Origin: Fimbriimonadales bacterium
Lineage (GTDB): Bacteria > Armatimonadota > Fimbriimonadia > Fimbriimonadales > GBS-DC
Direction of reading: 5' to 3'
Length of the DNA stretch: 64,000 bases
NCBI GenBank assembly: GCA_025061985.1
Contig: JANXAW010000030.1
Location: 30,172 to 94,171 of the forward strand
The notes under the pieces: generated by a model
What the model was told of the DNA's origin: nothing
What the model saw: only the letters and a program-made list of their open reading frames with translations
The model's database searches: none
Program-made: the position numbers and the translations under genes
Shown here: positions 28,161 through 43,768 of the stretch, in pieces
Layout: each line of letters opens with the position of its first letter
How positions within the stretch are numbered: position 1 is the stretch's first letter

Positions 28161-28200
28161 AGTAAAAAAATTCGCAGGGGGGCGCTTGCCCGCCCTGCGG
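28161..28200 (-). terminator. Rho-independent terminator of the minus-strand sulfide operon
   Basis: Minus strand: GC-rich hairpin CGCAGGGCGGGCAAGCGCCCCCCTGCG then AATTTTTTT. Confidence 0.75.
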
Positions 28201-28220
28201 GAGGTGGAAGGAAGGTCGAT

Positions 28221-28466
28221 TCAGTTGTGCTGCGTGAGAGGCAAGCCTTTCTCTTGCCGTGCAGCGATACCGCCCGTGAGGTTGTACAGGTTGCGAAAGC
28301 CTTGTGTGCGCAATGCGCTACCAGCGAGGCTAAAGCGGTCATCCACATAGCAATAGACAATCACGGGCTTGTCTTCGGGAGCTTCGCCCGCCTCGCCCAT
28401 TGCAGGGCAGCCGAAAAAGTACGATGCCTGTGCCAAGCCCTCTTCGCAGATTTGGCGGAAAATCAT
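28221..28466 (-). pseudogene. Internally deleted metallo-beta-lactamase/rhodanese fusion remnant (81 aa)
   Basis: MIFRQICEEGLAQASYFFGCPAMGEAGEA (MBL-fold N terminus) joined in frame to PEDKPVIVYCYVDDRFSLAGSALRTQGFRNLYNLTGGIAARQEKGLPL (rhodanese C terminus). Confidence 0.65.
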
Positions 28467-29044
28467 CGCTGCACCTCTGTTGGGATGATTTTGACAGAGA
28501 AGGCGCCCCGCAAATCGCCCATTCGGTAACCACGCGCTTTGTCGTTGGGATAACGCTCGCGAATCAGACGCAGCACTTCAGGCTTGATTTGCGTCCCGTG
28601 GCACTCTAAGCATACAGGCGCAATGATTCGGATAGGTCGCATATAGCGAAACACGCGCTGTCCGCGCTCAGTGCGCCATTCCGCCACTTCCGTGATGGGT
28701 TTACCCTCGCGTAGGCCACGTTCCCAGCGCAGGAGCACTTGGCGCTCCCAAGCGTCGGGAGCATTGCGTGGGTTGCGGTTTTTGAGCGAGACGCGCCGGA
28801 TCTGCACGCCATGTTCGCGCCCTACCTGCTGCGTGAGCACTTGAGCGACTTGCGAGCAGACCTTTACGCCGCGCTCTGCCCCGCCTTGCTGATACTCGGC
28901 GTTAAGTCTTTGCAGCAGGCGGCTAAACAGCGCATCTGCGGCGGTGCGTGCTCGCTGCAGCAACGCTGTTTCAAACGCACTTTGGGCGACACTTATGCCT
29001 ACCAACAGCACTACCGAGCCAACAAACAGCCCTATGCGTCGCAT
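28463..29044 (-). CDS. Tll0287-like/DUF3365 heme-domain protein
   Basis: Signal peptide MRRIGLFVGSVVLLVGISVAQ; KVCSQVAQVLTQQVGREHGVQIRRVSLKNRNPRNAPDAWE; CLECH heme-binding motif. Confidence 0.82.
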   Translation of the reverse strand: MRRIGLFVGSVVLLVGISVAQSAFETALLQRARTAADALFSRLLQRLNAEYQQGGAERGVKVCSQVAQVLTQQVGREHGVQIRRVSLKNRNPRNAPDAWERQVLLRWERGLREGKPITEVAEWRTERGQRVFRYMRPIRIIAPVCLECHGTQIKPEVLRLIRERYPNDKARGYRMGDLRGAFSVKIIPTEVQR

Positions 29045-29107
29045 CGTTGGGACACCCCTATTCACACAGGGATGGGGCGTGGGCTTGCTTAGCCCACGCG
29101 AAGCCAC

Positions 29108-30364
29108 TTACGCCAATCCGCGCAGCATCAAGTTCCAGTACATCCACGGCAGCCCGTACTTCTTGAGCAGCCACATATCAAACCGCTCCTTGCAGGTGTT
29201 GATGAACGGAATGGTGGGGGTTGGTTTGCCACTGTAGTCAAACTCTGCCAGCACCATCCGCCCATAGCCCGTTACGATGGGGCAGGCGGTGTAGCCGCCA
29301 TAATGCTTATCTGGCTCTTTGCCATCCATTACGCGCAGGAGGTTATGAACGAGCACGGGCGCTTGCTTGCGCACAGCTGACCCTGTGCGCGAGGTGGGCA
29401 AACCTGACGCATCGCCCAACGCAAACACGTTCGGATAGTCGGGGTTCTGCAGGGTATGAATGTCCACCTTCACAAACCCAACGAACCGCCCCTCTTGATG
29501 GGCGATCGGCGACTCGCGCACAAACTGAGGCGGACGCTGCGGCGGTCCAATGTGGAGCATGTTGAACTCAATTTCACGGACCTCGCCTGGCTTGTCCTTG
29601 AGGGCAAAGGTAGCCACCTTCCGAACAGGGTCTACCGCCACCAGCTCGTGTCCAGTGAGTACCTCAATGTTGTAGCGTGCGCAGACGCCCTCCAGCACTT
29701 TACAGAACTCAGGTACGGTAAATATCGTGTTCCCAGCTGTGGCGTAAATCACCTTCACGGGGCGGTTGTGCATGCGGAAGTAATCAGCAGCCATGTAGGC
29801 AATCTTTTGGGGTGCGCCCCCACACTTGATGGTGTAACCTGGCTCGGCGTTGTTGGGCATCGTAAATAGTGCGACGCCTTCTTTAGTTTGCTGAATGAAC
29901 TCCCAAGTCTTCGGAGCAAGCTCGTAGCTATAGTTAGTGCTAACACTATTGTGCCCAAGCGCTTCTTCTGCGCCTTGGATCTTGCTCCACTCGGAAACCA
30001 CCCCAGGGGCAACAACCAGAAAGTCATACCGCACTCGCGTGCCGTTGCGAGTGCACACGATCTGCTGGTCTGGGTCAATCTCTACGGCGTAGTCTTGGAT
30101 CCAGCGCGCGCCTTTGGGGATAAACTGTGCCTCATCGCGCACGCTCTGCTCCGGTTTCGCCACGCCTGCGCCCACTAAAGTCCACAACGGCTGGTAGTAA
30201 TGCTTTGAGGAAGGCTCGATAATCGCTATGTCGCGTACGCCCTTGCGTGCTAACTGAGCCGCTACGGTGATTCCACCCGTGCCACCACCAATAATCACTA
30301 CGCGATGATGAACCGTCTCACGCGCCTTGATGGGCGCAGCACCTACTCCTGCGTAGGTTTGCAT
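29108..30364 (-). CDS. sqr: Sulfide:quinone oxidoreductase
   Basis: HHRVVIIGGGTGGITVAAQLARKG...YYQPLWTLVGAGV...CGGAPQKIAYMAADYFR...GDASGLPTSRTGSAVRKQAPVLVHNLL. Confidence 0.9.
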   Translation of the reverse strand: MQTYAGVGAAPIKARETVHHRVVIIGGGTGGITVAAQLARKGVRDIAIIEPSSKHYYQPLWTLVGAGVAKPEQSVRDEAQFIPKGARWIQDYAVEIDPDQQIVCTRNGTRVRYDFLVVAPGVVSEWSKIQGAEEALGHNSVSTNYSYELAPKTWEFIQQTKEGVALFTMPNNAEPGYTIKCGGAPQKIAYMAADYFRMHNRPVKVIYATAGNTIFTVPEFCKVLEGVCARYNIEVLTGHELVAVDPVRKVATFALKDKPGEVREIEFNMLHIGPPQRPPQFVRESPIAHQEGRFVGFVKVDIHTLQNPDYPNVFALGDASGLPTSRTGSAVRKQAPVLVHNLLRVMDGKEPDKHYGGYTACPIVTGYGRMVLAEFDYSGKPTPTIPFINTCKERFDMWLLKKYGLPWMYWNLMLRGLA

Positions 30365-43714: not shown

Positions 43715-43768
43715 TGTCATTCCGAGCCGAAGGCGAGGAATCCAAGACTCCTCGCTGCGCTCAGGGTG
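43715..43768. repeat. CATTCCGAGC...GAGGAATC dispersed repeat (copy 2)
   Basis: tgtcattccgagccgaaggcgaggaatccaagactcctcgctgcgctcagggtg. Confidence 0.7.

Follow-up and report, generated by a model that had tools for sequence, protein, structure and literature searches.

The window (the whole 64,000-nucleotide stretch of DNA that was analyzed) contains an 81-aa open reading frame that joins the beginning of one enzyme domain to the end of another at the end of a sulfide operon. The question at this locus is whether this frame is a small working protein, what is left of a larger enzyme, or an error of the assembly. Comparison with related genomes suggests that it is probably a non-enzymatic, decaying remnant of a CstB-type persulfide dioxygenase (PDO)-sulfurtransferase. 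The genome of the species of the window is referred to here as G000 and its sister species as G001.

Structure of the Short Reading Frame

Alignment to full-length relatives agrees with the preliminary description, in which the frame was said to join a metallo-beta-lactamase (MBL)-fold N terminus to a rhodanese C terminus in frame. Codons 1-26 match the N terminus with 88% identity in most of the full-length orthologs in the genus, the C-terminal part has 55-69% identity to the ortholog C terminus (69% across 49 codons with G001), and nothing lies between the two halves. The frame corresponds to the two ends of a 474-aa MBL/rhodanese/rhodanese protein, 26 codons from its start and ~54 from its end. 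The coding sequence is 246 nt in G000 vs. 1,425 nt in G001, a difference of 1,179 bp (exactly 393 codons). This internal deletion removed 83% of the ancestral gene, and it joins codon ~26 to codon ~419, so that residues ~27-418 of the intact protein are missing. The parts of the frame are the following:

28221-28466, minus strand: 81-aa ORF, putative remnant of a CstB-type PDO gene (MBL-rhodanese-rhodanese)
28389-28466, minus strand: codons 1-26, N terminus of the MBL domain, without metal ligands; the blastn block to G001 stops at 28389
28374-28388, minus strand: deletion junction with near-tandem GGCGAGGCG/GGCGAAGCT; 1,179 bp missing vs. G001
28221-28385, minus strand: C-terminal half of the last rhodanese domain with the Cys39 loop CYVDDR (Pfam PF00581, positions 58-98 of 102)

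Intact orthologs consist of an MBL domain, a middle rhodanese domain without Cys, and a last rhodanese domain with Cys. Their HxHxD metal motif (ETHIHAD) and their middle rhodanese-like domain are deleted in the window copy. Pfam finds rhodanese positions 58-98 of 102 only (PF00581, E=3e-6), which falls short of a complete rhodanese domain (~100 aa, alpha/beta). The earlier claim that the metal site and most of both domains were lost is borne out by these results. A structure model of the intact protein was good in the rhodanese part and poor in the MBL part, and in it the lost part of the last rhodanese includes a helix (374-383), a strand (387-390), and another helix (394-399).

Rhodanese loops are defined by six residues, with the catalytic Cys first and Arg (or Thr/Ser) last (PMC8533005). 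CYVDDR, which had been proposed as a remaining candidate catalytic loop, is a six-residue loop of this type; Cys and the loop-end Arg are retained, and the conserved loop Gly is Asp. A small known family matching the frame end to end was ruled out, because Pfam and NCBIfam detect the rhodanese half only and the relatives are full length. The near-tandem GGCGAGGCG/GGCGAAGCT makes a microhomology-driven deletion plausible, as read from this single junction.

Operon Context and Orthologs

Two genes precede the frame on the same strand:

28463-29107, minus strand: Tll0287-like (PF11845) protein with CxxCH, upstream of the remnant with an ATGA overlap
29108-30364, minus strand: sulfide:quinone oxidoreductase-like (type III) flavoprotein (SQR), intact

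The top match of 29108-30364 is the type III sulfide:quinone reductase model (E=1.4e-67, under the curated cut-off of the model), and together with the Tll0287-like CxxCH heme protein it agrees with the sulfide operon proposed earlier. The Tll0287 gene and the PDO start share the 4-nt ATGA overlap that was also described earlier, and G001 and G010 have the same overlap. A single contig carries SQR, Tll0287, and PDO in this order in G001, G010, G004, G005, and G006 (the SQR gene is truncated by the contig end in G005 and G006), and SQR immediately precedes PDO in G016. Because this order recurs in relatives, the locus is orthologous and not a random fusion. Operon position, ATGA overlap, and 3'UTR are as in the intact orthologs, which points to descent of the remnant from the CstB-type PDO-sulfurtransferase family.

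Nine full-length orthologs have a single open frame, eight with 81-100% identity to the G001 copy and one with 74%; the full-length gene is carried by species of the same genus and family. Most of them sit behind the same Tll0287 and/or SQR genes. No deletion common to relatives was found in the 18 genomes of the family examined. G009 was considered as an independent PDO loss and was unusable, as its contig ends where PDO would start. SQR supports pairing of G000 with G001 as sisters (100% support), and the remnant itself also groups with G001; because of this grouping, the tail of the remnant is the tail of the native ortholog.

Other irregularities were seen at this gene in the genus. Compared to G005, the PDO gene of G004 (L037:9030-10470, minus strand) has insertions of 2 bases and 1 base, and the shifted stretch contains a TAG; this may be another broken copy in the genus, or assembly errors may be the cause. 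In G012, contigs C197 and C250 (loci L039 and L040) share one PDO end with its 3'UTR, and each stops at codon ~359, which looks like a duplicated or strain-variant assembly end. Outside the orthologous region, 28 bases of the window (43715-43742) are identical to G001 (L034:6490-6517) near a tRNA-Leu/tRNA-Val pair, possibly a repeat.

Selection on the Retained Codons

Selection was measured with a codon model that gave the G000 branch its own omega and was fitted to 75 retained codons from 11 species. One-ratio omega was 0.068. The two-ratio fit gave an omega of 0.233 on the remnant branch vs. 0.057 elsewhere (LRT 8.67), and the LRT was 8.54 on a second topology and 6.69 without the junction codons. 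The observed LRT was reached in 1 of 120 null simulations, and that one had no raised foreground omega. SQR and Tll0287 had no shift on the G000 branch (omega 0.064 and 0.109). Selection on the retained codons is relaxed, as in a pseudogene.

Six of the 45 columns that are invariant among orthologs are changed in the remnant, compared to a maximum of four in any other species by the same count. Among the changes are Asp in place of the loop Gly, Phe in place of the Ser that follows the loop Arg, and Arg in place of a Trp.

The preliminary description offered two readings, a dead PDO-rhodanese and a domesticated mini-sulfurtransferase. The second would make the fused peptide, with its Cys39 loop, a small persulfide carrier beside SQR. 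Retention of the catalytic Cys and the loop-end Arg, an intact start, coupling, frame, and stop, and an omega below 1 all speak for such a carrier and count against a dead remnant. Setting omega to 1 along the whole remnant branch made the fit worse by 2.45 lnL. This poorer fit would be expected where the branch is in part older than the deletion, which is probably the case, or where some constraint remains. In a neutral simulation with 0.05-0.1 substitutions per site, 50-69% of runs left an 81-codon frame free of stops, so an open frame of this length says little in favor of function. The proposed carrier has half a rhodanese domain only; its selection is relaxed, not maintained, and it no longer has the conserved Gly, Ser, and Trp. 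AlphaFold, run on the 81-aa sequence alone without an alignment, gave no confident fold (pLDDT 41); this is a weak test, to which we give little weight. A decaying remnant is favored because the metal site and half of the last rhodanese are lost and because selection is relaxed on the remnant branch but not in the two operon neighbors; we consider a domesticated mini-sulfurtransferase very unlikely. The reading as a dead PDO-rhodanese, in turn, agrees with the intact syntenic orthologs, the one in-frame deletion, the significant branch-specific rise in dN/dS, and the changes at conserved rhodanese positions.

Assembly and Other Copies in the Genome

A further explanation is faulty assembly, in which the population would have the full-length gene, and the assembler or a strain mixture would have skipped 1.18 kb. 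Full-length genes in relatives had been named beforehand as one half of what would indicate a misassembly, and that half was found. The window comes from a 66% complete assembly of 44 contigs, and contigs break within or at the PDO gene in G012, G013, G002, and G009, so this region can be hard to assemble. Against an artefact, the remnant tail has its own accelerated amino acid change, which is not expected of a chimera of intact sequence, and it groups with the sister species G001 as expected. The deletion site is far from contig ends, and the rest of the G000 assembly does not contain the missing ~390 codons. An artefact is therefore quite unlikely in our assessment.

The search for a second intact PDO copy, suggested in the preliminary description, found none in the 66% complete G000 assembly. 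The only other match was a tandem-domain sulfurtransferase of the thiosulfate/mercaptopyruvate type on contig C44, which is intact (L096:44-919) and has the loop CRIGER. Some of the sulfur transfer could pass to this enzyme.

The history of the remnant is as follows. PDO was the third gene of an ancestral SQR - Tll0287 - PDO operon, and a single in-frame deletion of ~1.18 kb fused codon ~26 to codon ~419. The deletion left in place the start with its translational coupling, the stop, and behind it the conserved 3'UTR motif with the terminator, and the retained codons evolved under weaker selection on the G000 branch. The resulting peptide would be unable to bind Fe(II) or to form a complete rhodanese domain and would have no PDO activity, and its short length and young age would be the main reasons why the frame is open. 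SQR would still make persulfide or polysulfide. As gene loss this case is ordinary but clear: a sulfide operon appears to have lost its PDO while SQR is under normal selection, and therefore persulfide disposal must have changed. Disposal may have moved to other enzymes or to genes missing from the assembly.

Conserved 3'UTR Element

Downstream of the stop codon is a conserved element that was absent from the preliminary description, apart from the terminator:

28203-28218, minus strand: conserved C-rich 3'UTR motif CGACCTTCCTTCCACC, 16 nt, directly after the stop codon
28164-28199, minus strand: intrinsic terminator hairpin and U7, with a covarying stem in seven species

The terminator described earlier is present as a hairpin followed by seven U at 28164-28199. 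The hairpin is GC-rich (-23.5 kcal/mol, z=-3.5) and was missed by a simple terminator scan. The whole element (28164-28218, minus strand) has the same place in G001, G002, G004, G005, G006, and G012.

Seven species of the genus have an identical 16-mer, CGACCTTCCTTCCACC, behind PDO. Across 113 genomes of the order it occurs behind PDO only (twice in G012, where the gene end is on two contigs), and a covariance model of the element has strong full-length matches behind PDO only, which rules out a dispersed repeat. Read-through coding was ruled out as well, as stop codons and spacing vary between species. From the stop codon to the T tract, G000 and G001 are identical at 46 of 48 bases vs. 47% at SQR fourfold sites (Fisher p=2e-11). 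Hairpin pairs are kept at 92% with three compensated pairs, a covariation score reached by none of 500 shuffles; slid controls went down to about 50% paired. Four genus members with PDO have a different 3'UTR (G007, G008, G010, and G011).

Well-known bacterial regulators include C-rich stretches that pair with ribosome binding sites and also RNAs that derive from 3'UTRs (PMC8383071). The element combines a conserved sequence with a covarying intrinsic terminator, as 3'UTR-derived small RNAs do, and our preferred reading is that it may be such an RNA. No Rfam match was found. The near-complement targets examined fall inside coding regions and none was convincing, and pairing with start regions was no better than the general Shine-Dalgarno background.

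This raises another explanation for the persistence of the gene, in which the coding part is dead and the transcription unit is kept for a 3'UTR RNA (a C-rich single strand and the terminator hairpin) acting in trans or in cis. The 3'UTR identity between G000 and G001, the restriction of the 16-mer to sites behind PDO, the covarying stem, and the non-coding nature of the element argue for it. Candidate targets that are mid-gene or unspecific and the four PDO-bearing genus members with other 3'UTRs argue against it, and if the deletion is recent, retention could be inertia. We hold this explanation to be tentatively possible and on the improbable side. Its specific form, in which the PDO gene, reduced to a shell that is still transcribed and terminated, would persist mainly as the carrier of a conserved regulatory RNA derived from the 3'UTR of the sulfide-oxidation operon, is improbable. 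Retention for an RNA is compatible with a dead protein and does not exclude the decaying remnant. The 3'UTR sequence could matter more than the gene loss, as its constraint is far above that of synonymous sites and it could tie a small RNA to sulfide oxidation. Our literature search found no paper on a small RNA tied to PDO or on PDO pseudogenes beside SQR.

Comparison with Known Systems

Bacterial 3'UTR-derived sRNAs (types I and II) (PMC8383071) resemble the element of the window in having a C-rich stretch beside an intrinsic terminator at the operon end; they differ in that the window element is known from sequence alone and has no Rfam match. Single-domain rhodaneses such as PDB 1qxn and GlpE have a C-terminal half that resembles the remnant tail (1qxn, E=1.4e-8). 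These proteins have about 100-140 aa and all strands, whereas the remnant lacks the first half.

The PDO-rhodanese fusion BpPRF has MBL and rhodanese domains in one chain. It differs from the intact orthologs in having one rhodanese domain only (PDB 5ve3-5ve5), and its match to the intact ortholog is weaker and lies in the rhodanese part (E=6e-21). Among solved structures, 3tp9 (E=3e-137) and 3r2u (E=5e-108) are the nearest relatives of the intact ortholog, both matched over the whole length. We take PDB 3r2u to be CstB of Staphylococcus aureus, reportedly characterized by Shen and colleagues in 2015 as a persulfide dioxygenase-sulfurtransferase. The window copy differs from CstB in lacking residues ~27-418. 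The cstB gene adjoins SQR (PMC9995734), and the intact orthologs likewise adjoin SQR.
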